Positions 7,210 to 59,238 of a stretch of 64,000 nucleotides of DNA are shown in pieces. The stretch's first letter is position 1. The number at the start of each line of letters is the position of its first letter. The stretch is from Herpetosiphon geysericola (lineage in GTDB: Bacteria; Chloroflexota; Chloroflexia; Chloroflexales; Herpetosiphonaceae). The notes beneath the pieces are model-generated. The model saw nothing but the letters and a program-made list of their open reading frames with translations, was not told the DNA's origin and searched no databases. The position numbers were made by a program, and so were the translations under genes. The DNA is taken from the NCBI RefSeq assembly GCF_001306135.1, contig NZ_LGKP01000022.1, forward strand, positions 434,001-498,000, read 5' to 3'.

Positions 7210-7943
7210 GGTGTTGTCCCTCTAACTGGGGTGAATGAGCGAGCATCGACAGCGAAGAAGTGAGCAAATAATGCCGATGCAATAGTAAAAATTATGATTG
7301 AAACGTTTTATTTTTGCAAGTACAACAAACGCAACAATTACGCACAAATAGCTTTTCTTGTGCAGATATTAACGATATTCTTATAAATCATCATTAAATA
7401 GCATTAAAAGCGCATAAATTTAGCCTTCATGACGAAATATATTTCTATTCCAGACAAGGAATAGTTAATGTAATTATCTCGTTATGCGTTGCAAATAATC
7501 CTCTTGAGTGATCCAAACGTGGAATAGTTTTACACCGATTAACCCAAAAGAATTATTCCACATGTGGCACTATCAATTGTAAACAGGGCAGAGTGCTGAT
7601 TGTTTACAATTGATAGCAATTGATAACAGCATTCTGTGGGAGTGTTATCAATTGATAACAGGGGCAAGAATCAAAGCTACAACAAACATTGTTAGTTTAT
7701 TGTTGCTCGCTGCGGCTACTGCCAGATCGACAACACATGATGCTGGTTTATTGTCGAAAGCGCGTAGGATCATTCATCAACAACAACAAACCAACAACAT
7801 AGCGCGAATAGAGCGACAACATAGCGCGAACAATTGTTGTTGTTGCTCCAGCCTGGCCACCAGCTGCTGGTACTCAGCTATGGATCGTTCCACTATCTCA
7901 CACAATCGATTGAAGGTATTGCAAAGCCTTAATAAATAAGGTA
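7210..7943. other. CRISPR leader region with several inverted repeats
   Basis: No gene is supported. It holds CTATTCC/GGAATAG (about 7444-7464), GTGGAATA/TATTCCAC (about 7529-7561), the perfect 15-base inverted repeat at 7571-7615 and the 16-base palindrome at 7644-7659. The 14-mer CAACATAGCGCGAA occurs twice 24 bases apart (near 7796 and 7820), and CAACAACAACA/TTGTTGTTGTTG segments follow. The array promoter is at 7919-7947. Confidence 0.65.
7571..7659. promoter_or_regulatory. TATCAA/TTGATA palindromes in the CRISPR leader
   Basis: TATCAATTGTAAACA (7571-7585) and TGTTTACAATTGATA (7601-7615) are perfect 15-base arms around a 15-base loop. GTTATCAATTGATAAC (7644-7659) is a perfect palindrome, with another TTGATAAC at 7619-7626. 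Such clustered palindromes suggest a dimeric regulator. The same core flanks the cmr promoter at 59296-59348. Confidence 0.55.
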
Positions 7944-7947
7944 TAGT
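7919..7947 (+). promoter_or_regulatory. Probable CRISPR array promoter
   Basis: TTGCAA (7919-7924), 17 bases, TATAGT (7942-7947). Transcription would start at about 7954, inside the first degenerate repeat, and run through the array to the terminator at 10628. Confidence 0.6.
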
Positions 7948-10622
7948 CAGAACACTATAATCCTCGTCAAGGATTAAAACGTCCATGTCGGCAGCGGTGA
8001 GCTGGTCGGCAGCGCTATCCATATCGAAAGACCTCAATCCTCGTACGGGGATTAAAACATATTCAATTGGTAAGGTGCAACAACAGGTTTTTGGGATTCG
8101 AAAGACCTCAATCCTCGCTTGGGGATTAAAACTCATGGGTAATATAGGCAGCTCGATCCCAAATGTCATTCGAAACACCTCAATCCTCGCGAGGGGATTA
8201 AAACGGGGCAACAGCATAAATGGTGAGCGTTGGGTGGATTCGAAACACCTCAATCCTCGCGAGGGGATTAAAACCAATCCTCGGCGTTCTCACTTTCGTA
8301 ATCGTCGCCGCTTTCATTCGAAACACCTCAATCCTCGCGAGGGGATTAAAACGGTAGCATTTGAACGCATCCGCAAACCTGACAAGTACATTCGAAAGAC
8401 CGCAATCCTCGCGAGGGGATTAAAACGTAGAACTCAGGCCAAAGATCGCGCTCGTCGTGCATGATTCGAAAGAGATCAATCCTCGCGAGGGGATTAAAAC
8501 TCCCCAGACAGGCGTTTAGCGCTGCTCATGTTGAATTTAATTCGAAAGACCGCAATCCTCGGTAGGGGATTAAAACTCAGCAATATTGTAACGAGCAGTT
8601 ACAGGTCGAGCATTCTTCGAATGGGCACAATCCTCGCGAGGGGATTACAACATTGATGGCTTTGTTTCCGCATTCTCCCATCGGGTTAGATTCGAAGCAC
8701 CGCGATCCTTGGCAGGGGATTACAACAGATTTGTGTAAGATTATCGGAAAATTAGCGAGAAATATACTCGCAACACCGCAATCCTCGCGAGGGGATTAAA
8801 ACCCAGAGCTTGTACGCTTCATCCATGAGCCGTTGCATTGTTGGATTCGAAAGGCCTCAATCCTCGCGAGGGGATTAAAACTTCAGTGCAACGGGCTTGC
8901 CCTTCGCAGTTGCCATAATTCGAAACACCTAAATCCTCGTGAGAGGATTAAAACGCAGCGCGGCCAATTCGATTCGATTGCAACAATCGATGATTCGAAA
9001 CACCTCAATCCTCGTGCGGGGATTAAAACTCAAGCTGACTTTCTTTTGAGCTTCAGCGGTCGAAACAGATTCGAAACACCGCAATCCTTGCGAGGGGATT
9101 AAAACGCCAACTGGAAGTTGATTGCCCAGAGCGCTGTTGTTTTCATTCGAAAGACCTTAATCCTCGCGAGGGGATTAAAACCAACGACCTGTCAGCTTAC
9201 CGTATTCAGTTACCATATTGGATTCGAATGACCTGAATCCTCGCGAGGGGATTAAAACATCATCGGGCTACGAATGAGCCACCAGTTCCAATTGACTATT
9301 CGAAAGACCGCAATCCTCGTCAGGGGATTAAAATGGCTACTCGGCTTGTTTATTACTCGCTTTACCGTCGCGTCCATTCGAAGCAGCTAAATCCTCGTCA
9401 GGGGATTAAAACTTAAATGTGCTAAAGTAAACCTCTATACTCTCGTCTTGTTATTAGAATGGCCGCAATCCTCGTGCGAGGATTAAAACATAACCGTTGC
9501 ATGGGCTAGTACGTCGCTGCGAAAGTTATTCGAATGACCTGAATCCTCGCGAGGGGATTAAAACCTAGGGCGGTTCGTAACACGCTCAGAGCGTCCTGTT
9601 ATTCGAAAGACCTCAATCCTCGCTCGGGGATTACAACAAATCCAACCAATGGCTTGTAATGGCTTGCATTGCAAGATTCGAAGCACATCAATCCTCGTCA
9701 GGGGATTACACCATAAATCCTACGCTATCTATATCAGGGCTTGTGTGGCTAACGACTCGAATGACCTCAATCCTCGCGAGGGGATTAAAACGGGGAAACT
9801 GTATTCGCTTGGTTCCCAAGGCCGTCACTTGAACCACCACAATCCTCGGTAGGGGATTAAAACGCAAGCTGGTAGTTCAGCACGTCTGTTTGGTCGATAT
9901 CAAATTCGAATGACTCAATCCTCGTTAGGGGATTAAAACATTGGTGTTCGATAGAAGATCCAAGCGGGAGGATAAATTCAAAACCTTGAATCCTCAGCAG
10001 GGGATTAAAGCCCAATAATGTTTAGCTGGCAGATGACCGCGCCTGTCCCTAGATTCGAAGCACCGCAATCCTCGTCAGGGGATTAAAACCAAACACCATC
10101 CAACATCTTGTAGCGATAGAACGAAATCCATTCGAAAGACCTCAATCCTCTTTGGGGGATTAAAACTGCATTGGTTCTGCATACTGCGGTACTAGCCCAG
10201 TGGTTTCATTCGAAAGACCTCAATCCTCGTGAGGGGATTAAAACCCATCGCTGACGAAATGACTTCTACATTAACTTCGCTGACATTCGAATGACCTAAA
10301 TCCTCGTGAGGGGATTAAAACGCAATGATGCTAGCAATATTCCGCTTCATTCCCATAAATTCGAATGACCTAAATCCTCGTGAGGGGATTAAAACCGACG
10401 TGGAACGTAGCTGCCTGAACTACGGCGAATTGCATTCGAATGACCTAAATCCTCGTGAGGGGATTAAAACTGGTTGAGGGACATCGAACTGCGGGCGGCG
10501 CGACGGTTATTCGAAAGACCTCAATCCTCGTAAGGGGATTAAAACTCATCGTTGAACGCTTGACGATATTCCTCGCGAAACTTCGATTCGAAAGACCCCA
10601 ATCCTCGCGAGGGGATTAAAAC
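7944..10622 (+). CRISPR. CRISPR array, 36 repeats / 35 spacers, type III-like, divergent repeats
   Basis: I count 36 repeats of about 37 bases, ending at 7980, 8058, 8132 and so on to 10622. Periods are 70-79 bases, so spacers are about 33-42 bases. The 3' part GGGGATTAAAAC is nearly constant and gives an ATTAAAAC 8-base tag like those of type III crRNAs. The hairpin part varies widely (CCTCGCGAGGGG, CCTCGTGAGGGG, CCTCGTCAGGGG, CCTTGGCAGGGG and others). The 5' part ATTCGAAAGACCTCA also varies. Repeats 10, 11 and 23 end in ATTACAAC, 19 ends in AAAT, 24 in ACACC and 28 in AAAG. Runs of identical variants occur (repeats 4-6; 32-34). Orientation is set by the tag, the upstream promoter and the downstream terminator. 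No cas gene is adjacent; the cmr operon is 42 kb away. Confidence 0.95.
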
Positions 10623-20493: not shown

Positions 20494-21063
20494 ATGATGA
20501 CCAATGAAGTACACGACAACCTCAAATATGTAACAGATAAGCCCTTAACCAAAAAGGAGCAGGCGTTTGTGTATGAGTATGTCAAAGACTTCAACGGTAC
20601 GAAGGCCGCTCAGCGAGCAGGCTATTCGGAGGACAATCCTCGCGCTGCATCCGTGACCGCAAGCCGCATGCTAACAAAAGCTAACATCATGCGCGCGATA
20701 CGAGCCTTAGTGTCCGAACGCGCCATGAGCGCCGATGAGGTACTTGATCGCTTAGCCCGCATTGCACGCGGCACGATCGAGCCATTCATCACTAAGGCCA
20801 ATGCGATCAATCTGAAAACTGTGGAGGCGCAGGTGGACATCGGGCTAGTGCGCAGTTTTCAGGAAGGAACGTCCAAAGTCGGTGCGAAGCTGGAGTTGCA
20901 CGATGCACTGAAGGCACTGGAGCTGATTGGCAAGGCCAATGGCGCACTGACCAATATCAAAGATTCGTTGTTGGCCAACCTTGATGTGAGCAAGCTCACA
21001 CCAAACCAAATTCGGGCTATTGCCGCAGGCGAGGATATCATCGATGTCTTACTTAATCCCTAA
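20494..21063 (+). CDS. Phage terminase small subunit
   Basis: 189 residues of the terminase_2 type. LTKKEQAFVYEYVKDFNGTK, then AQRAGYSEDNPRAASVTASR, form the DNA-binding N-terminal domain. The C-terminal helices (ELHDALKALELIGKANGAL) are typical of this family. It recognises phage DNA for packaging together with the large subunit, whose start overlaps this gene by 20 bases. Confidence 0.85.
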   Translation: MMTNEVHDNLKYVTDKPLTKKEQAFVYEYVKDFNGTKAAQRAGYSEDNPRAASVTASRMLTKANIMRAIRALVSERAMSADEVLDRLARIARGTIEPFITKANAINLKTVEAQVDIGLVRSFQEGTSKVGAKLELHDALKALELIGKANGALTNIKDSLLANLDVSKLTPNQIRAIAAGEDIIDVLLNP

Positions 21064-22768
21064 TACCAATCTGCGCATTAAGCCGCCACTGACCCTGCAA
21101 GTGCGTGCGAAGGCCATCCTTGAACTGCGCGAACGCGGCTTGGAGGATGTATCCCCGTTTGAGGAGTATCAGTTTAATCCTGAGGGCTACACCAAGGACA
21201 AGCTGGGCTGGCAGCCATGGCGCGGTACGGGCATCGACGAGCCTGGGCAGGTTGAGATTTTCGAGGCCTATACCCATGCGTTACGCCAACAGTTTGAACG
21301 AGAAAAGTACGAGAACGGCGAAGCCTACGATGAAACCGTGTGGCAGCCCGGGCAGATCATCAAAAACCGGATACGGATCGAAGCAGGCCACGGGGTAGGC
21401 AAGACCAAAGGCATGAGCGCCTTAGTCAGCCATTTCTTAGATTGCTTTCGGCCCAGCATTATCTACACCTTTGCTCCGAGCTGGGATCAAGTGAAAAAGC
21501 TGCTCTGGAAGGAAATCAAAACCGACCGCAAAAAGGCCAAGCTGCCCGGTCGGATCCTGGAGACCTGTGAAGTCATCATCGACGACAACCATTTTGCGAG
21601 TGGAAAGTCAACCGATGATAGCAATGGCAAGGGTGGCGAGCGGGTGCAAGGGCAGCACGGCAAGTTTTTGATGTTTGTGCTCGACGAGGCCGAAGGCATT
21701 CCCAAGTTTGTCTATGAGGCTATCGATTCGATGACGAGTGGCGGGATTGTGATTGTGCTCATGATTGCCAATCCCAAGACCCGCAATAGTCATTTCTATC
21801 ACCAAGCGAAGTACAGCAACGTGCTCTCGATGCGCATGAGTTGCTTACAGCATCCGAATGTGGTGGCTGATAAAACCGTGGTGCCAGGGGCCGTGAAACG
21901 CAGTTATGTCACGGACATGATCGAAAAGCACTGCCACGAAGTGGATGGGCCAAACGCGGACTTATTCCACTTCCAAGTGCCATGGGATGCTACAACGTGG
22001 TATCAGCCAAATAATGAATTCATGTTCCGCGTGCTTGGTATTCCACCCGAGAACGCCAGTATCAATACCTTCATTCCGGTTGGTCGGTTCGAGGCAGCGG
22101 TCAAGCGTGGCAAACAGCCCATGGCCACTGGAACTGTTGACCAAACCAAAGCGCGGATCGGGGTGGACTGTGCGCGCTGGGGTGATGATACCGGAGCGGT
22201 GTATTTGCGGCACAACGGGCGGATTAATAAGGTTGCGCGCATCGAGCAGCAAAACACCTTTGTCTATGTTGAGCACATTAAATTCGCTGCCTTGAAGCTG
22301 CCTGAGGATGTAACCAGTCTGCATATTCGCGTTGATGGCACCGGTGGCTTTGGGGCTGGGATTATCGATCGCTTATTAGTTGATCCCGAATTGCGGCGAC
22401 GCTTTCGCGACTATCAGGTGATCGAGGTCCTGTTTGGGGCGCTGCCCTCGCCGCATAACAGCGACGAGTACGCCAACTGCGTGACCGAGATGTACGCTGA
22501 AACCGCAGAGGTCTTGAAAGATATTGCCATTCTTCAGCCCGCCGAGCAGCTCGAAATTGATTTGACCGATCGTCAGTATGGCTATCAGTCGAAGGGGCAG
22601 TTAGAGCTGAAACGACTTGAACCCAAGGATGATTTTCGCAAACGCCACAAGCATAGTCCTGACGATGGCGATGGCCTCGTCTTATGTGGCGCTCCTGACT
22701 TTTGCTTTGATCACCTGCTAATAAGCAATGACGATGAAGCAATGCCTGGCTCATGGGGGAGCTATTAA
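21044..22768 (+). CDS. Phage terminase large subunit
   Basis: 574 residues from ATG 21044. The ATPase part has Walker A GHGVGKT (residues 115-121) and Walker B FLMFVLDE (about 208-215). The C-terminal nuclease starts near residue 370 with RIGVDCARWGDD, the first acidic site of the RNaseH-like terminase nuclease; TSLHIRVDGTGGFG follows. It drives ATP-dependent DNA packaging into the procapsid via the portal. Full length and intact. Confidence 0.9.
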   Translation: MSYLIPNTNLRIKPPLTLQVRAKAILELRERGLEDVSPFEEYQFNPEGYTKDKLGWQPWRGTGIDEPGQVEIFEAYTHALRQQFEREKYENGEAYDETVWQPGQIIKNRIRIEAGHGVGKTKGMSALVSHFLDCFRPSIIYTFAPSWDQVKKLLWKEIKTDRKKAKLPGRILETCEVIIDDNHFASGKSTDDSNGKGGERVQGQHGKFLMFVLDEAEGIPKFVYEAIDSMTSGGIVIVLMIANPKTRNSHFYHQAKYSNVLSMRMSCLQHPNVVADKTVVPGAVKRSYVTDMIEKHCHEVDGPNADLFHFQVPWDATTWYQPNNEFMFRVLGIPPENASINTFIPVGRFEAAVKRGKQPMATGTVDQTKARIGVDCARWGDDTGAVYLRHNGRINKVARIEQQNTFVYVEHIKFAALKLPEDVTSLHIRVDGTGGFGAGIIDRLLVDPELRRRFRDYQVIEVLFGALPSPHNSDEYANCVTEMYAETAEVLKDIAILQPAEQLEIDLTDRQYGYQSKGQLELKRLEPKDDFRKRHKHSPDDGDGLVLCGAPDFCFDHLLISNDDEAMPGSWGSY

Positions 22769-24333
22769 TGCCAACGGCCTTTGACAATCTTTCCGTGGAA
22801 TCAGCAAAGAAGCGGCTGCCTGTTACGCCCGAAAGCGTCAAGAGCGCCGTGCTCTTTCGCGATGGCGATCACTGGCAAGGTGGCGCAGCGTGGACTGGGC
22901 CAACACCCGCCGCGGGCGATAAAAATGCCTCTGAGGTTATGACCCGTATCCAACGCGAGTTTGTCTCCAGCAACGTGATTGCCGAGGTGGTTGAACGCCA
23001 CATGAACGGTGCAATTGGCCGTGAGCCACAGTGGGGCTATGCCGTCCGTCGCCCACTGCTAGATGAGGAACAACCAACCGATCCCGAGCAAGGCTTAATC
23101 GACGAGGCCGAAGCGGCCATGACGAGCTGGTGGGATCAGCGCAATGTGTTAAGCATTTTGCAGGAATCAATTGCCACTGCCGTGGTGTATGGACGCGCTG
23201 TCCTGCGCTTGTTTATTCCCCCTGCTGCGGTCGAAGGCGGGGTGATTCAACGGCAGCCAACCTTGGCCGATGCCTTGAATCTCATTTGGCTCGATGTGCT
23301 GGCCCCAGAGCAAGCGGGTGTCAGCCGCGACAAAGCCACCATGCAAGCCTGTGGCGTGTATGTCTACACCAACGACGACAAAACAGAAGTTGCGGAAGTG
23401 ACCTTTCTTGATGGTCTTGATACGGTGGTGCGCACCCTCGAAGGGGAGGCCGTGACGGGCGAAACGCGGCTGCCGCTGATGGGTCACTTACTGATGCTCG
23501 AAATTACCTGCAAGCCCATCATCAGCCTGTCGATGCAGCAGATGCAAAAGGCCTTAAACATGACCTTGACCATGCTCCAACACAACATCGTCATCAGCGG
23601 CTTTGTCGAACGGGTGTTGTCGAATGCCCAAATGCCCTACGACGAGGTGGACGATCCGGCGAATCCCAATCAAAAGATGCGCGTGTATAAGCCCTATGAC
23701 ATTGGCCCCGGCAAAACGACCAATCTCGTGGGTGTACCAATTCGGGATGAGCGCACGAAGGCGATCACGGGCTATACCAATCCATCAGTGCAGTGGCGCG
23801 ACCCATCGCCCGTCACAACCTTTGTTGACACCGATGCCGCCATTTATCGCCGCATGCTCAACGAGTGTAAGCAGCTGCATGCGCTATTGAGTGGGGATGC
23901 CGTCGCCAGTGGCGAAAGTCGCAAACAGGCATTGCTCGATTTCGCGATGGCGCTTGGGCCAACGGCCACCGCCATCAAGCAGCTGGTGCGCTGGCTGCTC
24001 GAAGCGACCTTAGCCTTAGCCGCACACTTTGCTGGCCGACCGAACGCCTTTGATAGCCTGCGCGCGGATGTGACCCCACGCCTGTGGCTGGGCAGCTTAA
24101 GCAGCGAAGAGCGTAACTTTTTATTAGCAGCCTATGAAAAAGGGGCTATCAGCCACGACCTGTTCTTAAGCTTGATCGATGTTGAGGATGTGGATGCCGA
24201 GAAAGCCCGGATTGCGGCGGAGCAGGAAGCTAAGCAGATTCAGCAAACCCGCACGCTGGCAGCCGCGCTCGCAACCAACCAAGCGCGGCTCGATAGTGGT
24301 GCTGCCAGCACCGGCTTGGAGCAACCCGAATGA
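22768..24333 (+). CDS. Phage portal protein
   Basis: 521 residues from ATG 22768, which overlaps the terminase stop (TAATG) and has GGGGGAG upstream. Typical siphovirus portal features: an N-terminal SSNVIAEVVERHMNGAIGRE segment, the central beta-rich stem and crown, and a C-terminal helical part ending in Gln/Ala-rich sequence. Position after TerL and before MuF supports it. The portal forms the DNA-entry dodecamer. Confidence 0.85.
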   Translation: MPTAFDNLSVESAKKRLPVTPESVKSAVLFRDGDHWQGGAAWTGPTPAAGDKNASEVMTRIQREFVSSNVIAEVVERHMNGAIGREPQWGYAVRRPLLDEEQPTDPEQGLIDEAEAAMTSWWDQRNVLSILQESIATAVVYGRAVLRLFIPPAAVEGGVIQRQPTLADALNLIWLDVLAPEQAGVSRDKATMQACGVYVYTNDDKTEVAEVTFLDGLDTVVRTLEGEAVTGETRLPLMGHLLMLEITCKPIISLSMQQMQKALNMTLTMLQHNIVISGFVERVLSNAQMPYDEVDDPANPNQKMRVYKPYDIGPGKTTNLVGVPIRDERTKAITGYTNPSVQWRDPSPVTTFVDTDAAIYRRMLNECKQLHALLSGDAVASGESRKQALLDFAMALGPTATAIKQLVRWLLEATLALAAHFAGRPNAFDSLRADVTPRLWLGSLSSEERNFLLAAYEKGAISHDLFLSLIDVEDVDAEKARIAAEQEAKQIQQTRTLAAALATNQARLDSGAASTGLEQPE

Positions 24334-25325
24334 TCGACGCGGTTGCCATTGCCAATCAATTTCGTGCTGAGCTGCTCGCAATGAATGCGAGCGCCATGAA
24401 CGATCTGACGAAACGCTGGCGCACAGTGGAAGCCGCCTTGAAGGCTGAAATTGAGGCCTTAGCATTTCAAATGAGTCAGGCCAAAGCTGACGGGCAAACG
24501 GTCAGCGAATCGCAGCTGTATGCAAACGATCGCTACCAAGCGTTGTTGATCCAACTCCAGCGGGAATTAGCGAAATATAACGCTGATGCAGCGGCGCTGA
24601 TTCAAGCCCAGCAACTGAGTTTTGCCAGTATGGGAGCCGAGCAGGCGACCGCGTGGTTGCGCTACTCCGGCGCGATTCAAGGGTCATTCAATCAGTTGGG
24701 CAGCGGCGCATTTGAAAACATTGTTGCTTTAGCCCGCGCTGGCAATCCCTTGGATGTATTACTGAACAACGCCTATCCGGCAACGGCCCAAGCTATCACC
24801 GATGAACTGCTGAAGGGGTTGGCGTTGGGAAAGAATCCACGCACAACCGCGCGGAATATGGTCAACGAAGGGCTAACAACCAGTCTTAATCATGCCTTGC
24901 TAGTGACGCGGGATCAGTCGGTTCGGGCATCACGGTTGGCCACGTTGCAGCAGTATCAAACGAGTGGATTAGTCGTGGCTTATAAGCGAGTTGCGGCACG
25001 CCAACGGCGCACCTGTCTGGCCTGTTTGGCACTCGACGGCACGGTGTACCCAACCAATGTGATGATGCCGCTGCACCCGCAATGCCGATGTGCTGTACTC
25101 CCAATTTTAAGGAACCGCGAGCCGCTGGCGATGCCAACAGGTAAGCAATGGTTTCTGGAGCAGAGCGCAGACACGCAACGGAAGATGCTTGGCCCAGGTC
25201 GGTATGGGCTATGGGAACGTGGCGCGTTTCAATTCGAGGATTTAGCGACGGTGCACAGCGGTGGGGTTTGGGGCGCAAATGCCCAAGTTACCACGGTGGC
25301 CGCACTGCAAAGGATAGGACGATGA
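24330..25325 (+). CDS. Phage minor head protein, MuF-like
   Basis: 331 residues, four-base overlap with the portal. Helical N-terminus; C-terminal MuF/SPP1 gp7-type domain with RTTARNMVNEGL, ARRLATLQQYQTSG-like and a Cys/His cluster CLACLALDGTVYP...HPQCRC. Such proteins are minor virion parts ejected with or attached to DNA. Confidence 0.8.
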   Translation: MIDAVAIANQFRAELLAMNASAMNDLTKRWRTVEAALKAEIEALAFQMSQAKADGQTVSESQLYANDRYQALLIQLQRELAKYNADAAALIQAQQLSFASMGAEQATAWLRYSGAIQGSFNQLGSGAFENIVALARAGNPLDVLLNNAYPATAQAITDELLKGLALGKNPRTTARNMVNEGLTTSLNHALLVTRDQSVRASRLATLQQYQTSGLVVAYKRVAARQRRTCLACLALDGTVYPTNVMMPLHPQCRCAVLPILRNREPLAMPTGKQWFLEQSADTQRKMLGPGRYGLWERGAFQFEDLATVHSGGVWGANAQVTTVAALQRIGR

Positions 25326-25600
25326 TGGAACCTAATGATCTCATGCAGGCACTACGTGTAGCGATTCCAACAGAACAGGTGATTCATGAATCACTGCGTG
25401 AATCGTTTCAAAAATTGAGCCACAGCCTTGAAGGGTTTGTGGTACTCAATCCACCACCGCAACTATTCGATGATTTCATGCATCCACGCATCCATCCATC
25501 CCGCGTTGGTGATCCACCAGCGCAAGGGTGTGACGCGGCACCAAATCGCAAACCAAAACCATGGGAATCGGTTCGCTGGCAGCCACGCCGGAAATACTAA
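25322..25600 (+). CDS. Small hypothetical head-module protein
   Basis: 92 residues from ATG 25322 or 25325, overlapping the MuF stop. An N-terminal helix (ALRVAIPTEQVIHESLRESF) and a Pro/His/Arg-rich C-terminus. No recognised family. The overlap and direction support it as a gene. Confidence 0.55.
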   Translation: MMEPNDLMQALRVAIPTEQVIHESLRESFQKLSHSLEGFVVLNPPPQLFDDFMHPRIHPSRVGDPPAQGCDAAPNRKPKPWESVRWQPRRKY

Positions 25601-25631
25601 AAGCAGTCTAGTCATACAGGAGTAAATCGCA

Positions 25632-26363
25632 ATGGTTCGCTTTTTTCGCTCAGTCAAACTTTTTACCGCTGATAACGGTGGCGGCGGCTCTGGCGGCGCT
25701 AGTGGTAATCCAGCACCAGCAACCCCGCCTGCCAATCCACCGGCGAACCCGCCCGCTAGTGGCAGTGGTAATCAACCCGATATTGCGGGGCAAATTGCCA
25801 ATCTCGTTGCCCGCCAAGGTGGCCCAGATGCAGCGCTCATGCTGTTGATGCAGGAGAACTATCAATACCGCGATCAGAATCGCCAGCTGCGCGAGCGCAC
25901 GCCGGAGGGTTCTGTAGTACTCAGCGGCGATGATGTACAGCGCTGGCGGGATTATCAGGCACTTGGGCAGCTCGATGAATTACGCATCCGTTTGACCGAG
26001 CGCGAGCAAGCCCAAACCGAGCTCGCCACGTTGCGCACCCAAGCGACCATTCGCGGCGTTGCCGAAGCGATGCAGTGGAAACCAAGTGTCTTAGAGCGCT
26101 TGGCAGGCAATGTCACCTTTGTCACCAAAACCGAGGGCGATACAACCACGATCAGCGTCAAGGACGGCGACGTGGAAACCTCACTCCAAGCCTATGCCGA
26201 CAAGCACTGGAGTGAATTCATGCCCGCCCTCACGACTGATACAGCCCCTGCACGGAGGGGAACGAACTTTGTCCAGCAAGGTGCTGGCAATGTCAAAAAG
26301 ACCGATGTTATGACAACCCATAACCAAAAGATGGGTTATAGCGTCCCAAAGCGAGGTAATTAA
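25632..26363 (+). CDS. Phage capsid scaffolding-like protein
   Basis: 243 residues. A Gly/Pro-rich start is followed by a helical, Gln/Arg/Glu-rich body (YQYRDQNRQLRERTPEGS, ELRIRLTEREQAQTELATLR). It is in the usual place between MuF and capsid, and the composition is that of phage scaffolding proteins. The assignment is by position and composition. Confidence 0.65.
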   Translation: MVRFFRSVKLFTADNGGGGSGGASGNPAPATPPANPPANPPASGSGNQPDIAGQIANLVARQGGPDAALMLLMQENYQYRDQNRQLRERTPEGSVVLSGDDVQRWRDYQALGQLDELRIRLTEREQAQTELATLRTQATIRGVAEAMQWKPSVLERLAGNVTFVTKTEGDTTTISVKDGDVETSLQAYADKHWSEFMPALTTDTAPARRGTNFVQQGAGNVKKTDVMTTHNQKMGYSVPKRGN

Positions 26364-26983
26364 TGGCCGACGTAAACACCTATGCAAACCAACTGACCAG
26401 CCCAGCATGGGCGGGCGACTTTCTCAATCGTGAACACCTGATGCCTGGCGGTGCAAAGGTCGATGCAAACCAGTTCATGGCAACCGATGGCGCTGTGGTC
26501 ACATTGACCGCCAACGCCTTAGTCAATGCTGTGAGCATCGCGGTTTCAGCCTTGGCGAACCCAATCCCGAGCGGCACGCAGCTGCGCTTTGGTGCTGGCA
26601 AGTATGCCTACACGACTGCCAATGCAACGGCGGGCGCAGTGACCATTGCGGTCGAAGCGTTGCCGGTGGCGCTGACCAACGGCGATAAGGCCACCTATAA
26701 GGGCACAGGCATGAAGCCCGTCACCATCGTGAGCGGTACGTTGCTTGGCCGCACGTGGGCCGAGCGCGATGCAGGCACGGCCTTTGGCCCCGCTGCTGAT
26801 ATCGATGAAGATATTTTCTTCTTGGCTCAAGACATTACCGATGCCAGCAAAAACAATGATGCTGACTTGTATCGCCATGGTGGCATCGTGAAAGAAAACT
26901 TTGTACCAGGCTGGGCGAATCTGAGTAGCACGTTGAAGGCGTTTGTGCGCAGCCGTTACCAATGCACCGTTGGCAAAGCCTAA
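26363..26983 (+). CDS. Phage head decoration-like protein
   Basis: 206 residues, start overlapping the previous stop (TAATG). It is beta-rich and Ala/Thr-rich (VTLTANALVNAVSIAVSALA, GAVTIAVEALPVALTNGD). It sits between scaffold and major capsid, where head decoration or stabilising proteins are usual. The fold was not confirmed. Confidence 0.55.
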   Translation: MADVNTYANQLTSPAWAGDFLNREHLMPGGAKVDANQFMATDGAVVTLTANALVNAVSIAVSALANPIPSGTQLRFGAGKYAYTTANATAGAVTIAVEALPVALTNGDKATYKGTGMKPVTIVSGTLLGRTWAERDAGTAFGPAADIDEDIFFLAQDITDASKNNDADLYRHGGIVKENFVPGWANLSSTLKAFVRSRYQCTVGKA

Positions 26984-27036
26984 GCAGGGCGAAGGCAACC
27001 TAGTTTATTCATCAATCTGTTTAGGAGTTTCGTTCG

Positions 27037-28122
27037 ATGGATTTAGCAACCTTAATTGCTCAAGCTCGCGCTGATGGCACGCTCATCAATTTAGCGCGGA
27101 ATGTGTTGGCCCAGTTCGGGCGGCCACAACGGCGCTATCTTGGCGCGGAGTTATTGCCCGAGCGTACCGTGGAAGAAAACCAATATACCGAGGATGCGAT
27201 TCGCTATCGCACCGTCGTGGCCAATGGTGGCACACGGTATAGCCCCGCGCAAAAGAAGGGGGGCGACCTGATCGGAACGTTCGATGTCAAACTGGCCCAT
27301 AGCGATATTGCCCGCGAATTGACGGGTCGCGACTATGACATCCTGTTGCGCTACTTGGGCCGCAATGCCTCGATGGAAGCGATTGCCGCGCTGACGAATT
27401 GGGCTGAAACCACCATTAACTTGGCGTTGATTGAGGTCAACGAAGTTTGGCGCTGGCAAGCGATTGTCGATGCTGCTGTGGTTATTGAGGGTGATAACGC
27501 CTTCAAAGAAACCGTGCAATTTGCCAATCCTGCTGGTCATCGGGTCAACGTGGCGGGCGATTGGGCCAATGATAGTTACGATCCCTTCCAAGATATTTAC
27601 GCCATGGCGAATTTGCTGCAAGGCAAAGGCTACACCGTGGGTCGGATTATCACCGGCACGCCCGCGCTCACCAAGTTGTCGCTCAACAAAAACGTGCGTG
27701 CCCGCACCAGCCACTATGTAACCAACAATGGAGGCGCGTTAGAGTTGGCCGCTGGGAGCGCGAGCTTGGCCGGAATCAATGCGGCCTTGCAATTGAATAA
27801 TTTGCCGCCAATTGAGCGCTATGACCTGCGCTATCGCACCCAACAAGGCGATGTGCGATTCCTGCACGAACAAGCCTTCGTGATGGTGGCCCTCACAGGG
27901 CAAAACGAAGAACTTGATTTGCCGGATGCTGAACAAAACCTCATCACCGACACCTTGGGCTATACCGCGATTGGTCGGGCCGCTGGCCAAAGCGAGCCAG
28001 GCCGCGTGATTCGAACTGAGCACTTTGAAAACAAACCACCGCGGATCGAAGGCGAAGGCTGGCAGTCCTCGATGGTCGTAATCACCGACCCTGAAGCAAT
28101 CGCGGTGTTGAAAAACATCTAG
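27037..28122 (+). CDS. Phage major capsid protein
   Basis: 361 residues with a good AGGAG site. Features such as RRYLGAELLPERTVEENQY, DIARELTGRDYDILLRYLGR and VGRIITGTPALTKLSLNK resemble major capsid protein E-type (HK97 fold) capsids. It is in the standard position after the scaffold and decoration genes. Confidence 0.8.
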   Translation: MDLATLIAQARADGTLINLARNVLAQFGRPQRRYLGAELLPERTVEENQYTEDAIRYRTVVANGGTRYSPAQKKGGDLIGTFDVKLAHSDIARELTGRDYDILLRYLGRNASMEAIAALTNWAETTINLALIEVNEVWRWQAIVDAAVVIEGDNAFKETVQFANPAGHRVNVAGDWANDSYDPFQDIYAMANLLQGKGYTVGRIITGTPALTKLSLNKNVRARTSHYVTNNGGALELAAGSASLAGINAALQLNNLPPIERYDLRYRTQQGDVRFLHEQAFVMVALTGQNEELDLPDAEQNLITDTLGYTAIGRAAGQSEPGRVIRTEHFENKPPRIEGEGWQSSMVVITDPEAIAVLKNI

Positions 28123-32116: not shown

Positions 32117-35100
32117 ATGGCCGATGAAGAAGAACTAGGGCGTGCCATTATTAAAATCGGCGCGGATGATGCCGAGCTTGACCGCTCAATCAGCAACGCC
32201 GAGAACAAAGCCAAAGGCTTCGCGCAATCACTGGCGGAGAGCTTAAGTAGCGCCATTACCACGGCGGTGACTGGAGCCGTGGCCGCCGCCAGCGCTGCGC
32301 TGGCAGCTCTGGCCGTGACCGGCGTAAACGCCTTCGCCGGATTCCAGCAACAAATGAACAGCGTGTTCACGCTCTTGCCAGGCATTTCGCAACAGGCCAT
32401 GCAGGAGATGGGCGAGCAGGTCAAAGACTTTGCCGTGGAGTTTGGCGCGCTGCCTGAGAAGGTGATCCCCGCGCTCTATGAAGCGTTGTCCTCAGGCGTA
32501 CCCAAAGACAATGTATTTTCCTTCCTTGCTACGGCGCAGAAAGCGGCTATTGGCGGCGTAACCGACACCCAAACCACGGTGGACGGCCTGACGAGCGTGG
32601 TTAATGCCTACGGCGCGGACGTACTCAGTGTGCAAGCGGCGAGCGACCAAATGTTCACCGCTGTAGCCTATGGCAAAACCACGTTTGCAGAGATGGCAAG
32701 CACGCTCTACAACGTCAACCCCATTGCGGCCAGCTTGGGCGTATCGTTCAGCGATGTATCAGCCGCCATTGCCGCCATGACCGCGCAAGGCGTACCGACC
32801 GCGCAAACCACCACGATGCTGCGCCAGCTGTTTGTGGAATTATCACAATCCGGTGGCGAAGTCTCTGATTTATTCCAGCAACTGTCTGGCACCTCGTTCA
32901 AGAGCTTTGTTGCCAGTGGCGGCGATGTGCAGCAAGCACTCCAGCTGCTGGAGCAGCACGCCAATTCCAGCGGCGTGGGCATCAATGATCTGTTCAGCAG
33001 TGTCGAAGCAGGCAGCGCAGCGCTCACCTTAACAGGCCGTGGCACGGAGATGTTCACGGGCGCACTGGAATCCATGCAGAACAGCGCAGGCGCAACCGAA
33101 GCTGCCTACCAGCAAATGGATCAGGGCTTGACGCGCTCGATGGATTACCTCAAAGCCGAATTCAAGGTTTTGCAAACCGATGTGGGCAATGCCCTAGCAC
33201 CCACAGTGCAGGCCTTCGCTGATTGGCTACACGAGGCCATGCCCCGCATCAGTGCTGTGGTCGTGGGAGCCTTCGAGCGCATTGGTTCAGCGGTGCAAAC
33301 CGTTGGCCCGTATTTCGCGCAATTTGCCAGCACTGCCAGCGAAGCCTTTGGCCTGTTTATCGATTTAGCATCGAGCGCAATTCAGTGGGGCAGCAACATT
33401 GCCACGCAGTTGGCCAATGGGATTATGGGCGGAGCAGGAGCCGTCGTCGATAGTCTTTCGTACATTGGCGACCTCGTGACCTACTGGCTCGAACCCCATT
33501 CGCCGCCCAAACTGTTGCCCAATATCGACACATGGGGCCGCGATACGGCGCAAGTGTGGATGGATGGCTGGAATGATGCGCGGCTGCCCACCGATGGGCT
33601 ACTGGCCTACCTCGAAAGCGAACTGAAATCCATTGAGGATGCGCAGCAGCGGGTCAAGGAAGCGGCGCAAGAAAAGCAGCTGTTGGCCATGATCAACAGC
33701 ACCGGCGGCAAAGACAGCGACCGCGAGCAGGCCAAGCTGGAGTTGGCCGCGCTGAAGCTGCGCCAAAAGATTCGCGAGGAGCAGGCCAAGGCCGCTGAAC
33801 AAGAGGTTAAAAAGCCCAAGGCAACCGGTGGCGGGGGTGGCGGCGGTGGCAAATCGCCCATGGACGACGCGGCCAAGAAAGCCGAAGCCGCTGCCCGTGC
33901 GCAATGGGAATACAACTTCAGCGTGGCCGGAACGGCTGACCGTTTGCAGATGCTTAAGGACAAACAAGCAGGCTATGCCACGACTGACGCGGAATACTGG
34001 CGCTTGCAAGGCCAAATCAATCAGGAGGAACAAAAACGCCAAGCTGAGCTGGACAAACTGGCCAAGGAACAACGCGAATACGAATTGAGCCTCATGTCCA
34101 CCGAGGATCAGCTGGCACGCTTGCGCCAAGAGCAGAGCCAGTACGCCGAAGGCAGCGAAGAATACAACGCCATTCAGAAGGATATCAATAAGGCCGAGCA
34201 GCAACGCCAACGCGAGCTGGATGAAGTCAAGCGCAAGCAAGAGGAAGCGGCCAAAGCCGAGCGTGATTATCAGTATGCCACGGCTGATACTGCTGGCAAG
34301 CTGGCAATCTTGCAAGGTGAGCTGGCCAACACCAATGCCGACCAATCCGAATACTGGCGCATCAAAACCCAAATCTCGCAGCTCGAAGCCCAGCAACAAA
34401 AGGAGTTAGAAGCTTCCGCCGAGAAGATGAAGGGTGTGGGCGGCGCGGCCAAGGGCGCAGCCAAAGGCGTGGGTGCATTAATTCCACCGTTGGGTGGGAT
34501 CAAAGACAAAGCCGAGGAAGCCAACCAAGCGCTGAACGATGCGTCGAACGGCGCAAGCGCTGCCACTGATCGCTACACCGACCTGAAGGATCGCCAGCAA
34601 GAATTCGTTGCGACCGCTGCACCTGTGCCTTCGCTGATCGACCGGATTCGCAGCGCCTTTACCCAGGCAGCGCCCTTCATCGAATTGGTAAAAGGCGCAT
34701 TGGGCGGGATTGCGGTGCTCTTCACTGGGATGCAGCTCGTATCGCTGTTCCAAGGCTTAGGCGTAGCGGTGGCCGCACTCGTGTCACCGATGGGCTTGCT
34801 CGTGGCTGGCGCGGCAGCGCTTGGGCTGGCATGGCAAACCAACTTTGGCAATATCCGCACGATTACCACCGAGGTGTTCACATCCATTCAGACCACGGTG
34901 CAAACCGCGTGGGGCATTATCACCGGCTGGTTCCGCGAGAACGGCGAGCAGGTGGTGACATTCCTGCGCGATGCGTGGGGACGGATTGAAGGTATTGTCA
35001 GCACCGTGCTTGGCGCGGTTGGCACGGTCATTCAAACCGCGCTTGGCGCCATTAGAACCTTCCTGCAGGAGCATGGCGAGGAAATCAAGGGCACGCTCTC

Positions 35101-36169
35101 GCTGGCGTGGGAGACGATTCAAACCGTCATCGATGGTGCACTCGACATTATTGATGGCGCGATTGTTCCGGCATTCCAAGGCATTGCGACCTTCATCAGC
35201 GAGCATAAAGACCAGATCACGGGCGTGCTGAGTGGCGCGTGGTCGATTATCAAGGGTATCGTCGAAGCCGCCATGAGCGTGATCCAAGGCGTGATTAAAA
35301 CCGTGAGCGCCGTGATCAAAGGCGATTGGTCAGGGGCATGGACGGCGATTAAGGATATGTTCGCGGGTATCTGGAATGGCATCGTTGATGTTGTGACCGG
35401 AGCGCTCGAAGGTATTTGGAATCTGCTGGTCATTGCGTGGGATCTGATTGGCACGGGCATCAGCACGGCGTGGGACGGGATCAGCGGCTACTTCAGCACG
35501 ATGTTCGGTGGCGTGCTCGACAACCTGAGCGGGTTCCTCACCAAGTTCAAGGACATGATTGGCGGCGCGTGGGACTGGGTGAAAAAGGCCTGTGACTGGC
35601 TCTGGGAGAACATCGCAGGCGGGATGGTCAAATCCTTTGAGGGCATTCTGAATGACTTGAAAAAGCCCATCAATGCCGTGATTTGGGCCGTCAATAAGTT
35701 GATTGAAGGAGCCAATACCGTCAGTTCGTCCCTCGGCATGGGCACGATTCCGCTGATTCCGACCTTGGCCGAAGGCGCGAAGAACTGGGCGGGGGGCTTG
35801 GCCTTCGCGTCCGAGCCGTGGCTGGGCGTGGAGGCGATGCGAACGCCAAGCGGCGACTTTGCATTGCTCCCGCCGGGTATCAGCAACATTCCCCGTGGCG
35901 CGGAGGTATTCACGGCTGAGGAAACCCGAGGCATGGCGGCGCGCATGCGTGTTCCGCAAGGCGGGATGGTTGGCGCACACGGCCTTGACGGAGCAGGTGG
36001 ACCAACCATCATCAATAACTACTACACCTACACCACGAATGTCGATGCACGCGAGGCCATGAATCCCGCAGCTATCGAAGCCGCCGCCATCCGTGGCGCT
36101 GAAAAGGCCATCAAGAAATATACCGAAAAAGCCACTATGCAGAAGAAAACCAATCCATTTGGCAAATAA
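32117..36169 (+). CDS. Phage tail tape measure protein
   Basis: 1350 residues, the longest gene of the module. The N-terminal part is the TP901-type core (NAFAGFQQQMNSVFTLLPGI, then LYEALSSGVPKDNVFSFLAT and SLGVSFSDVSAAIAAMTAQG). Between about residues 600 and 770 lie three ~60-residue coiled-coil repeats, each with Y-(F/L)S---T-D-L--L and EYWR/EEYN. The C-terminal half has membrane-like and amphipathic segments (GISSVFTGMQLVSLFQGLGV-like) and repeated W/I-rich 40-mers such as AWSIIKGIVEAAMSVIQGVI. Tail length would be about 200 nm if the usual 1.5 angstrom per residue holds. Confidence 0.9.
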   Translation: MADEEELGRAIIKIGADDAELDRSISNAENKAKGFAQSLAESLSSAITTAVTGAVAAASAALAALAVTGVNAFAGFQQQMNSVFTLLPGISQQAMQEMGEQVKDFAVEFGALPEKVIPALYEALSSGVPKDNVFSFLATAQKAAIGGVTDTQTTVDGLTSVVNAYGADVLSVQAASDQMFTAVAYGKTTFAEMASTLYNVNPIAASLGVSFSDVSAAIAAMTAQGVPTAQTTTMLRQLFVELSQSGGEVSDLFQQLSGTSFKSFVASGGDVQQALQLLEQHANSSGVGINDLFSSVEAGSAALTLTGRGTEMFTGALESMQNSAGATEAAYQQMDQGLTRSMDYLKAEFKVLQTDVGNALAPTVQAFADWLHEAMPRISAVVVGAFERIGSAVQTVGPYFAQFASTASEAFGLFIDLASSAIQWGSNIATQLANGIMGGAGAVVDSLSYIGDLVTYWLEPHSPPKLLPNIDTWGRDTAQVWMDGWNDARLPTDGLLAYLESELKSIEDAQQRVKEAAQEKQLLAMINSTGGKDSDREQAKLELAALKLRQKIREEQAKAAEQEVKKPKATGGGGGGGGKSPMDDAAKKAEAAARAQWEYNFSVAGTADRLQMLKDKQAGYATTDAEYWRLQGQINQEEQKRQAELDKLAKEQREYELSLMSTEDQLARLRQEQSQYAEGSEEYNAIQKDINKAEQQRQRELDEVKRKQEEAAKAERDYQYATADTAGKLAILQGELANTNADQSEYWRIKTQISQLEAQQQKELEASAEKMKGVGGAAKGAAKGVGALIPPLGGIKDKAEEANQALNDASNGASAATDRYTDLKDRQQEFVATAAPVPSLIDRIRSAFTQAAPFIELVKGALGGIAVLFTGMQLVSLFQGLGVAVAALVSPMGLLVAGAAALGLAWQTNFGNIRTITTEVFTSIQTTVQTAWGIITGWFRENGEQVVTFLRDAWGRIEGIVSTVLGAVGTVIQTALGAIRTFLQEHGEEIKGTLSLAWETIQTVIDGALDIIDGAIVPAFQGIATFISEHKDQITGVLSGAWSIIKGIVEAAMSVIQGVIKTVSAVIKGDWSGAWTAIKDMFAGIWNGIVDVVTGALEGIWNLLVIAWDLIGTGISTAWDGISGYFSTMFGGVLDNLSGFLTKFKDMIGGAWDWVKKACDWLWENIAGGMVKSFEGILNDLKKPINAVIWAVNKLIEGANTVSSSLGMGTIPLIPTLAEGAKNWAGGLAFASEPWLGVEAMRTPSGDFALLPPGISNIPRGAEVFTAEETRGMAARMRVPQGGMVGAHGLDGAGGPTIINNYYTYTTNVDAREAMNPAAIEAAAIRGAEKAIKKYTEKATMQKKTNPFGK

Positions 36170-41796: not shown

Positions 41797-41913
41797 GTTT
41801 TGTGATCCCCGCGAGAGGATTCAGGTTTTTCGACTGGTAGTTGTACCTGCCCAGCAGGCGAGAACAAGCGCTACTGGTTTTAATCCCCCAACGAGGATAC
41901 CGAGACTATACAC
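41797..41913 (-). CRISPR. CRISPR remnant, two repeats and one spacer, minus strand
   Basis: Read on the minus strand, 41834-41797 gives CGAAAAACCTGAATCC then TCTCGCGGGGATCACAAAAC, and the second at about 41913-41877 gives ATCCTCGTTGGGGGATTAAAAC. Both match the main array's repeat form. They are separated by a 42-base spacer (41835-41876). The 5' half of the second is degraded. It may be a relic of a rearranged part of the main array. Confidence 0.65.
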
Positions 41914-42043
41914 GATGCGCCCAGCTGGCGCAAGCCCCGCTAAAACCACAAACGGCTCGCAAAACGGAGCCGCTTGTGGGAGAGAAGAGAGAGGAGAAGG
42001 TTTGGCCTAAGTTTAGCAAAAATAGGCTAAATGTCAATTCCAA

Positions 42044-50087: not shown

Positions 50088-50155
50088 GGTTGGTGGTTGG
50101 CTGCCCACCCGGCTCACCAACCAGGGCTGTTGCTGAAAAGCAACAGCCCTTTTGT
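50088..50155 (+). ncRNA. Possible small RNA ending in an intrinsic terminator
   Basis: GGTTGGTG/CACCAACC (50088-50122) is followed by GGGCTGTTGCT-GAAA-AGCAACAGCCC (50124-50149) and TTTTG, a perfect 11-base stem with a GNRA loop. No plus-strand gene lies upstream, so it may end a small RNA or be a boundary terminator. No promoter was clear. Confidence 0.4.
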
Positions 50156-52418: not shown

Positions 52419-53417
52419 TTAGGAATGTTGATCAATAAATGTGATTAATTCGCTAAACCATGACTTGGCTTGAAAATCTTTTTCACGCATGACAACCCGT
52501 GCCATTTTAATGATGGTTTCGGCAGCCTCACGTTTTTGCTTAATACCTTCGAGTTCTCTCCACTGTTGGATATAGCGGCCAATTTGACTAGCAAATTGAT
52601 TGGGCCTCAACCGATTGAAATCAGCCAAAAATTGCTCTAAGGCATCTTGGTTGGTGTCGCGTGGTGGTGGCTCTAACTTCAAACGGCCATAACCACTAGA
52701 CGTTTTGGCGCCGATACCATATTCCTGCAAGGCTTTTTCCAGAATTGCAAACGCTGCTGTGACCCACGCTTCTTCGCCACCGATGGCAAATAAATAGCTG
52801 CCCGTTGCACTCAAAAATGCGACCGGATTGGGCGAGTCGAAGTCGGTTGGTGCTTGCAACGAACCACCCTGTTGATAATTCATATGATGTGGGGTCATCA
52901 CATCAATTGCCAAGGGCTGACTGCTATTGGGAATATACAAGGCATCAAAGAACGTCAAATAGCCTGCGCTGCTCGGATGCCCGAACATCGTTTGGTAGGC
53001 ATTCAACGGGTTTTCTGGCTGGGTTTCTGAGCCTTTGGCCCAATCGTCGCCAAGCTGCTGGCGCGCATAGGCCGCGACGAGGCCCTTGATCGCGCTGCCT
53101 GGAATATAGGGCACGCCATAGGTGTGGTGCAAACAGATTGAGGTTTCGATTGGGCTGGCATTCCCCAAGCCCACAATCATGCGCCCTTGGACTATGGCTT
53201 CGCGACAAATAATATCAGGCTGGTTAAGACTAGCTTTCCAACGATCAAAAAAATAATTGTAGAGGGCTGGAACTTTCAACCCAGCTACTTGCTCAACCAG
53301 ACTGGCTTTGGCTTTGGTTTCATCATCAGCGCCAGCTTCGGTTAAAAACCGATCCAGCCATAAACCTGCATGCGTTGTGGGGGCTGGCTTGATTTGGGCT
53401 AATGCTGTTCTACGCAT
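52419..53417 (-). CDS. cmr6: Type III-B CRISPR RAMP protein Cmr6
   Basis: 332 residues from ATG 53417 (GAGG seven bases upstream; a GTG precedes it). RAMP signature GVPYIPGSAIKGLVAAYARQ and the later glycine-rich YGIGAKTSSGYGRL are typical of Cmr6, the cap at the 3' side of the crRNA in the Cmr complex. Last gene of the operon in order 2-3-1-4-5-6. Confidence 0.9.
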   Translation of the reverse strand: MRRTALAQIKPAPTTHAGLWLDRFLTEAGADDETKAKASLVEQVAGLKVPALYNYFFDRWKASLNQPDIICREAIVQGRMIVGLGNASPIETSICLHHTYGVPYIPGSAIKGLVAAYARQQLGDDWAKGSETQPENPLNAYQTMFGHPSSAGYLTFFDALYIPNSSQPLAIDVMTPHHMNYQQGGSLQAPTDFDSPNPVAFLSATGSYLFAIGGEEAWVTAAFAILEKALQEYGIGAKTSSGYGRLKLEPPPRDTNQDALEQFLADFNRLRPNQFASQIGRYIQQWRELEGIKQKREAAETIIKMARVVMREKDFQAKSWFSELITFIDQHS

Positions 53418-53426
53418 CACAATACC

Positions 53427-53819
53427 TCACTCATCAGTTTGATTGGTTACATCGCTGGCATCAAGATCAAGGATCGATTGGGCAAAGCGCTTGAACCACA
53501 CTAGCACTGCTAGGGTTTTGCGCGTCAGTTGCATATATTCAGTAATTGAGGCTTCTCGACTAGCCCTAAGTAAATCCTGCTCGCCAAGCACTGCCGCGAG
53601 ATCGCGCAGAAAATCTTTTTGGCCCTGTTTTTTGCGGGTGCTGGCAAAATGGAGTGCTTGCACCAGCCCGGCACTCCGAATCATTATTGGTAAGGTGAAT
53701 GCCATTCCACCATAATTGTCTTTTTTAGTTTTGTCTTCATTTTTTGAATAGGCCTCAACCTTCGTATGCACCGCAATCGCGTAGCGCTGTTCAAGCGTTT
53801 GGCGTTCTAACAAGCTCAT
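53427..53819 (-). CDS. cmr5: Type III-B CRISPR small subunit Cmr5
   Basis: 130 residues from ATG 53819. All-helical: LERQTLEQRYAIAVHTKVEA, then GGMAFTLPIMIRSAGLVQAL and EYMQLTRKTLAVLVWFKRFA. This is the Cmr5 pattern. It stacks beside Cmr4 along the target RNA. It starts three bases after the Cmr4 stop. Confidence 0.88.
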   Translation of the reverse strand: MSLLERQTLEQRYAIAVHTKVEAYSKNEDKTKKDNYGGMAFTLPIMIRSAGLVQALHFASTRKKQGQKDFLRDLAAVLGEQDLLRASREASITEYMQLTRKTLAVLVWFKRFAQSILDLDASDVTNQTDE

Positions 53820-53821
53820 GT

Positions 53822-54796
53822 TTACGCTCCTTCTGCCAAGGCTAAGCGGCATAGTCCGCGCCCAACAGTGGCATTACCGCCAAATTGAATCAGGTTTTGA
53901 TTTGCCACTTCCTTGATTGCTTCATAAACAGGATCTGGCTTTTTTTCAGCCTTTTGGGCATTTGTCTTGGTCTCTTTTTGATCATTAATCGCTACAATTC
54001 CGGCCAGGATGCTTTCGGCTGGCAAGGCTTCTTCATACCATAAGCCACCTTTTTCCACAACCTTGGTATCATCGTTGAGTCGAATGCGGGCGGTAATTTC
54101 GGTGGCGGTTGTCACCAAGAAATTAAAAATCTCATCATGCACAATACATAAGCGTTCGTGCAAAATTGTTTTCCATGTTTCGTCTTGGGCAAAAATTTGT
54201 TCACCGAGCCATGCTGCCCATTCATCTGCTAGCTTGGTTTCGGCTGGAATATCCAAATCTTCTAGGTAAACAGTAGCTTGTCCACTCAAAACGCTTTGTT
54301 GGGTGATTAATGCAAGTGCCTGATCTTGGCTGGAATCGTTCGCCTGCTTGCGGATTGTATCGGTGGCTGCAATTGTTGGAAAGTTATCTGAATTTGTAAA
54401 GCAGGTTTTGGCTTCGCGAGCAAATCGATTAAGCACATAGGGTGAGGTTACCCATGCAAATGTGCCATATAAGCTGCGAATTGGCAGTAACAACAGGCGT
54501 TGATCAGCAAAAATCGCATCCCCTGCCTGGTCTTGAGTACCAAATAGGCGATTCTGCTGATCTTCCAATGGTTTGCGTTGAGTTTTATCTGCTTCGGTAA
54601 GTTCTTTTTTATTCCAATTGGGTATGCGCAGACCATTTGAAATATCGCGAATTACCCCTTTGACCGATGAACCAGGAATATAGGGCAAATTGGTGGCTTT
54701 TTCGCGAGCAATCGGCATATCAATGACATCAATGCTTTGGCCAGTGCCCGCATGAATTGGCGAAAGTGCATGCACAAATAGCAAATGAGTTTGCAT
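53822..54796 (-). CDS. cmr4: Type III-B CRISPR backbone RAMP Cmr4
   Basis: 324 residues. Opening LLFVHALSPIHAGTGQSIDV contains the family's conserved LSPxHxGTG; NLPYIPGSSVKGVIRD is the RAMP glycine motif. FGTQDQAGDAIFADQRLLLL follows, with an acidic residue in the loop thought to cut target RNA in Cmr4. The C-terminus QFGGNATVGRGLCRLAL is the second RAMP glycine region. Cmr4 forms the helical backbone and cleaves bound RNA at six-base intervals. Confidence 0.92.
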   Translation of the reverse strand: MQTHLLFVHALSPIHAGTGQSIDVIDMPIAREKATNLPYIPGSSVKGVIRDISNGLRIPNWNKKELTEADKTQRKPLEDQQNRLFGTQDQAGDAIFADQRLLLLPIRSLYGTFAWVTSPYVLNRFAREAKTCFTNSDNFPTIAATDTIRKQANDSSQDQALALITQQSVLSGQATVYLEDLDIPAETKLADEWAAWLGEQIFAQDETWKTILHERLCIVHDEIFNFLVTTATEITARIRLNDDTKVVEKGGLWYEEALPAESILAGIVAINDQKETKTNAQKAEKKPDPVYEAIKEVANQNLIQFGGNATVGRGLCRLALAEGA

Positions 54797-54798
54797 TC

Positions 54799-59200: not shown

Positions 59201-59238
59201 TTGCAACACTCCTCTAGGCAAATGGGGAACTCTGGGCT

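Follow-up and report, generated by a model that had tools for sequence, protein, structure and literature searches.

Why does one CRISPR array of Herpetosiphon geysericola carry repeats that differ almost from unit to unit, when three other loci of the same genome and the same repeat family hold 317 repeats that are nearly all identical? The genome of strain GC-42 was reported as 46 contigs with six CRISPR arrays (PMC4653791). The stretch analysed here, referred to as the window, covers 64,000 nucleotides of contig C23, and coordinates are those of the window unless a contig or locus is named. Its main array, designated the W array, is as follows.

7944–10622, + strand: CRISPR array lacking cas genes, with 36 divergent repeats and 35 spacers

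The layout is the regular one expected of a CRISPR array, with repeats of 37 nt (one of 36 nt), a repeat spacing of 70–79 bp and 35 spacers of 33–42 nt without duplicates. The repeats themselves were not near-identical. Distinct sequences made up 31 of the 36, and the mean pairwise difference was 5.8 nt compared with 0–1.7 nt in intact chromosomal arrays across the genus; truncated repeats raise the value in one G001 prophage fragment. At the three uniform loci a single variant accounted for 57/57 repeats (C2), 88/95 and 41/41 (C7) and 113/124 (C11). These type III-A-associated chromosomal arrays have the 37-nt repeat family, hairpin, tag and spacer size in common with the W array; unlike it, they have uniform repeats and a GAGA loop. 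Rfam family CRISPR-DR30 (RF01341) was barely reached at its gathering score by one W repeat (10129–10166), on the opposite strand, while the remaining 35 fell below it. The initial annotation of this DNA, made from the sequence alone, had reported few repeats alike, a constant run of 12 final bases and identical repeats at 4–6 and 32–34. All three descriptions were confirmed: the final bases were GGGGATTAAAAC in 27/36 repeats, the 8-nt tag ATTAAAAC was exact in 30/36, and the repeats within each of the two runs were identical, with different spacers between them. It had also allowed that uniform repeats in relatives would point to an assembly or local artefact. Chromosomal arrays are indeed uniform, yet the independent assembly of G002 showed the same divergence in a related prophage.

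Departures from the consensus were counted in 35 W repeats, leaving out the first, which is damaged but still forms the hairpin fold. The total was 123, of which 99 fell in the linker (positions 8–14, 58 changes) and the tetraloop (positions 22–25, 41 changes). The 14 stem columns received only five, against 46.5 expected (binomial P=1e-18), and all seven hairpin pairs were kept in 35/35 full-length repeats. Purifying selection maintains the W stem. It is this absence of stem change that argues for structure, because no double compensatory change was found among the 35 repeats; the five stem changes were all one-sided and preserved pairing (A-U to G-U, U-G to U-A, C-G to U-G). The earlier proposal that structure and tag are what is selected is thus supported by the intact pairs, while the compensatory stem changes for which it suggested a test did not appear. 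Its description of a variable 5′ half and loop held for the tetraloop and linker and failed for positions 1–7 (ATTCGAA) and the 5′ stem arm at 15–21 (AATCCTC), both of which hold. Pairable stem changes do occur, in the five cells given above, but the example quoted, CCTCGCGAGG versus CCTCGTGAGG, is a change of the loop and not of the stem. Nor is a Cas6 of loose specificity needed, because its presumed substrate, the hairpin and tag, is nearly invariant. Hypermutation is not claimed: transversions outnumbered transitions 68:30 among linker and loop cells, but distinct types of change stood at 16:10, near the random 2:1.

Divergence of this kind could arise during acquisition, if the leader-proximal repeat were duplicated with errors so that each new unit inherited those of its predecessor and added its own. 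Such a process would fit the two runs of identical neighbours, and adjacent W repeats were slightly more alike (P=0.011), as were adjacent loops (P=0.014). The similarity did not decay with distance along the array, however (Mantel r=-0.07, P=0.82), and 67 of 78 column pairs failed the four-gamete test; a chain-copy model was rejected on these two tests. In addition, Cas1 was found at only one place in the genome, and the array next to it is uniform. The pattern is more like that of repeats changing independently than of errors passed along by successive copying, and we consider error-prone duplication very improbable. The suggestion that the runs were copied from one neighbour therefore retains weak support from the likeness of adjacent repeats and none from the gradient or the four-gamete test, and the causes initially put forward for the divergence were mostly not borne out.

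A point missed in the initial annotation is that the array is not chromosomal but carried by a 53.8-kb prophage integrated in a tRNA-Lys gene (C23:430306–484119). The parts of this element referred to below are listed here.

1–50119, no strand: part of the prophage within the window; attL lies outside at C23:430291–430306 and the attR core CCCACCCGGCTCACCA at 50104–50119
1077–1844, − strand: RecT-like annealing protein (weak Pfam hit, below cut-off)
20494–22768, + strand: terminase small and large subunits
24330–28122, + strand: head morphogenesis protein (24330–25325) and major head protein (27037–28122)
32117–36169, + strand: tape measure protein, matched at 33/41 by a spacer of the host's own chromosomal array C11

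A serine recombinase adjoins the tRNA-Lys gene 3.7 kb left of the window, and the core at the 3′ end of the tRNA recurs as attR. The empty site was found in a sister species (G004), where both flanks are contiguous with a 39-bp overlap, and IMG/VR carries the same region as a 52.9-kb viral contig. Between the attachment sites lie genes for a DnaD-like loader, regulators, an endolysin, terminase, head and tape measure proteins and a methyltransferase. No cas genes were found among the prophage proteins scanned. Within the genome Cas1 was found on C2 alone and Cas6 (Pfam) on C2 and C3 alone; the C2 array adjoins cas1, cas2 and cas6, whereas the W array has no cas genes. The whole W array had no match among INPHARED phages and PLSDB plasmids, and a search of viral contigs with the terminase returned just the same phage, a G003-like relative and one distant contig.

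We then compared the ends of the array with those of uniform arrays and of arrays in related prophages. The features concerned are these.

7919–7947, + strand: leader remnant with a promoter-like TTGCAA-17-TATAGT, 20/26 identical to the canonical leader end of C2 and C11
10628–10645, + strand: terminator-like hairpin and T tail immediately following the final W repeat; a homologous trailer follows the G001 and G002 prophage arrays
41799–41913, − strand: one-spacer mini-array within the prophage, with two unlike repeats, a 41-nt spacer, a promoter-like start and a terminator

The canonical leader of uniform arrays spans 56 bp and is 96% identical between C2 and C11; the leader end of C7 lies outside its contig. 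At the W array about 26 bp at 77% remain and the rest is absent. The promoter-like sites of the region did not exceed the number expected from shuffled sequence. The canonical leader was present at the uniform arrays C2, C11, G001 array C and G001b, and absent from the divergent arrays, namely W, the G002 array, the mini-array and G001 array A. The G002 array lies in a prophage of another species, in the same tRNA-Lys and in the same part of the phage; it had no recognisable leader, all 11 of its independently sequenced repeats were distinct, and its stems held two of 46 changes (P=3e-7). By contrast, the 20 repeats of an array in a G001 (H. aurantiacus) prophage are mostly uniform, and the canonical leader is present there. 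At related loci, uniform phage arrays that retain a leader can thus be compared naturally with divergent ones that lack it. There is an exception: G001 array B has no canonical leader and yet its repeats are uniform, so losing the leader does not invariably lead to divergence. This array contains repeated spacers and may have been recently duplicated. With this exception, the findings fit a W array that has stopped growing, and the earlier suggestion that it adapts rarely fits the loss of its leader. The terminator and the sequence following it are common to the W, G002 and G001 C/D arrays, and therefore this phage group has probably carried the locus for a long time. Its presence is polymorphic, since a G003 prophage that is 82–94% identical over the flanking segments is without exactly the array segment (breakpoints 7867|10759 at W, against about 110 bp in G003). 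Also observed in G001 were a nine-repeat array of distinct repeat type (L050 13014–13641), with a duplicated two-spacer block and no canonical leader, and a uniform prophage array (L054 11414–14831, − strand coordinates) split by an insertion of about 1.9 kb inside a repeat.

Leader loss would account for the divergence if, with the canonical leader gone, no new units were added to refresh the repeats. It is also possible, though we think it unlikely, that divergence itself was selected, phage annealing recombinases deleting units between identical 37-bp repeats so that only arrays whose repeats differ where Cas6 does not read them persist. The prophage has the weak RecT-like hit listed above, the identical run shared by neighbouring W repeats is mostly 9–24 nt, runs of at least 30 nt occur in just 1.2% of W repeat pairs, and divergence was seen in two prophages. 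Duplicated spacers were present in the uniform phage-borne G001 arrays and absent from the divergent ones (34 and 10 spacers compared), but most uniform chromosomal arrays also have few duplicates, so that this comparison has little power. The identical triplets 4–6 and 32–34 have nevertheless persisted, and drift after leader loss gives the same pattern without such selection. A tentative extension, to which we give slightly less weight again, is that phages keep their arrays recombination-proof by diversifying the repeats everywhere except in the hairpin and tag, which would let a long library survive recombination and prevent exchange with host arrays. Separately, two uniform chromosomal arrays of H. 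llansteffanensis (L063 and L070) had duplicated spacers at 7/48 and 12/26, suggesting segmental duplication by repeat recombination, or an effect of assembly.

Targets of the spacers were sought in about 1.3 Mb of phage, array and mobile-element regions. Supported targets were obtained for three of the 35 W spacers, two of these matches being weak (26/37 and 28/39).

10012–10052, + strand: spacer 28, matching at 34/41 a Rad52-like gene of the G003 rival prophage in the same tRNA-Lys, and also G005
9106–9144, + strand: spacer 16, matching C24 at 28/39 in DNA and at 10/12 residues in frame
8059–8095, + strand: spacer 2, a weaker match in which 29 nt agree at 86% with C24 sequence immediately upstream of an AAA_24 gene

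All three lead to a second phage family, family B, which includes prophages in the same tRNA-Lys of G003 and G005; the integrase region of these is about 94% identical to that of the carrier prophage. C24 is a family-B contig of 46,634 bp in the same assembly. It is probably circular because its 127-bp ends are identical, and it is probably an extrachromosomal phage or an induced phage in the sequenced culture. Spacer 28 also matched, less well (31/41), a family-A-like prophage of G001. In the G002 array two spacers matched C24, at 37/39 (g2_12554) and 30/43 (g2_12250), and G001 spacer g1D_85244 had a family-B match at the protein level (9/12). The best matches of these six phage-borne spacers were to family B, and all six crRNAs, few as they are, would run antisense to the gene or operon concerned, which is the orientation required by type III systems. 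The W spacers had no match in the carrier prophage, so the matches are to competing phages and not to the carrier, with two of the three W matches weak. At E<=1e-3, hits to families A and B stood at 0:4 for phage-borne and 12:4 for chromosomal spacers (Fisher P=0.014), a contrast significant at this cut-off only (P=0.14 and 0.06 at others); shuffled spacers gave 0/1000 hits at the same threshold. The carrier prophage's own family is targeted by chromosomal spacers of this and other Herpetosiphon, and the strain's chromosomal spacers match C24 with identities reaching 95%. Three other candidates were rejected: a 19-nt match of spacer 2 to a prophage conserved in four genomes (just 22/37 over the full length), spacer 7 against G002 (24/37) and spacer 23 against C3 (26/33).

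These matches and the intact hairpins bear on whether the array is simply an old, decaying and functionless passenger of the prophage. Its leader is mostly lost, its first repeat is damaged and few of its spacers were matched, all of which decay would produce. Decay should also have cost stem pairs, yet 35/35 repeats keep 7/7 and even the damaged repeat folds, and the spacers point to a single rival family, not to the mixture hit by chromosomal arrays. We consider such decay improbable.

The proteins that an array without cas genes would require are encoded by the host. Beside the C2 array lies a type III-A csm operon with two CARF-like proteins, cas6, cas1 and cas2, and a second operon lies within the window.

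52419–59221, − strand: type III-B cmr operon, chromosomal, outside the prophage just right of the attachment site and with no adjacent array

This operon encodes Cas10/Cmr2, Cmr3, a RAMP protein in the Cmr1 position, Cmr4, a small protein in the Cmr5 position and Cmr6. On the simplest reading of these sequences, the guides come from the phage and the proteins from the host. In our preferred explanation, to which we assign a probability of roughly two in three, the W array is a frozen guide library that the phage carries and that relies on the host's type III Cas proteins to act against rivals; its repeats would drift, subject to selection on hairpin and tag. A temperate Herpetosiphon phage in tRNA-Lys would carry repeats belonging to the type III family of its host, and transcription would run from the array's own promoter-like start to the terminator. 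Host Cas6 would cut each unit, the crRNAs would load into host Csm and/or Cmr complexes, and the lysogen would gain transcript-directed immunity to a rival family that includes phages integrating at this same tRNA-Lys. The linker and tetraloop, where bases would not matter, could drift freely, whereas the hairpin and 8-nt tag would be held because each unit must still be processed. Against the guide-library explanation, family-B phage C24 coexists in the same strain despite phage-borne and chromosomal spacers that resemble it, so that any protection must be leaky, escaped or absent.

Arrays of this general kind have precedents. The Sulfolobales portogloboviruses SPV1 and SPV2 carry mini-CRISPR arrays directed at competitors (PMC6858448); like the W array these are viral, lack cas genes and have spacers against related or competing viruses, and they use host Cas proteins. 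Unlike the W array, with its 35 spacers, lost leader, diverged repeats and bacterial type III host, they hold one or two spacers with host-like leader and repeats (PMC6858448). Prophages of Clostridioides difficile have been reported to contain CRISPR arrays, mostly without cas genes, with up to tens of spacers, repeats of host families and phage targets, as for the W array (PMC10778935). That survey reports host-type repeat families, with no structure-only repeat divergence in the portion drawn on here, and concerns a phylum different from that of W (PMC10778935). Prophage arrays without cas genes are therefore already known, and the structure-only repeats are the new part. A limited literature search found no long phage arrays that keep only repeat structure and tag, which is no proof of absence. 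The W array and its G002 relative add Chloroflexota, and a host with types III-A and III-B, to the known range of phage-borne CRISPR arrays, and the matches suggest phages with the same tRNA-Lys attachment site as the target. With about 40 sequences in two prophages, nearly all forming one hairpin, they amount to a natural mutagenesis of a type III repeat, which predicts that host Cas6 needs the seven stem pairs and the 8-nt tag and ignores the tetraloop and linker 8–14. Array finders that demand identical repeats could miss such arrays.

Phages also encode drifted host-type repeats as RNA anti-CRISPRs (Racr), solitary repeat units with a promoter close upstream (PMC10651486). If the repeats of the W array acted similarly, as mimics tying up host Cas6 or Cas7, they would shield the phage from host CRISPR, a counter-measure that would pay given the chromosomal Herpetosiphon spacers against this prophage family. 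The promoter–repeat layout of the mini-array resembles these solitary units (PMC10651486). Unlike them, the W array is a full-length array that holds many spacers, some of them matching a rival family. A decoy has no need of 35 different spacers, some with targets, or of antisense matches to a rival family, and a working crRNA would have the same hairpin and tag; we therefore regard this role as doubtful for the W array, more so than simple decay. The mini-array itself might serve either as a crRNA gene or as an RNA anti-CRISPR. Its spacer had no target among the regions searched, and a relative with 3–4 repeats and the same terminator is present in a G001 prophage region (L050 ~9630–9871). 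Close to the mini-array, at 41946–42000 of the prophage-bearing window, lies a 55-bp pyrimidine tract with a terminator-like hairpin that occurs also near the C11 array (L029 18235–18289) and is partly repeated elsewhere in the genus.
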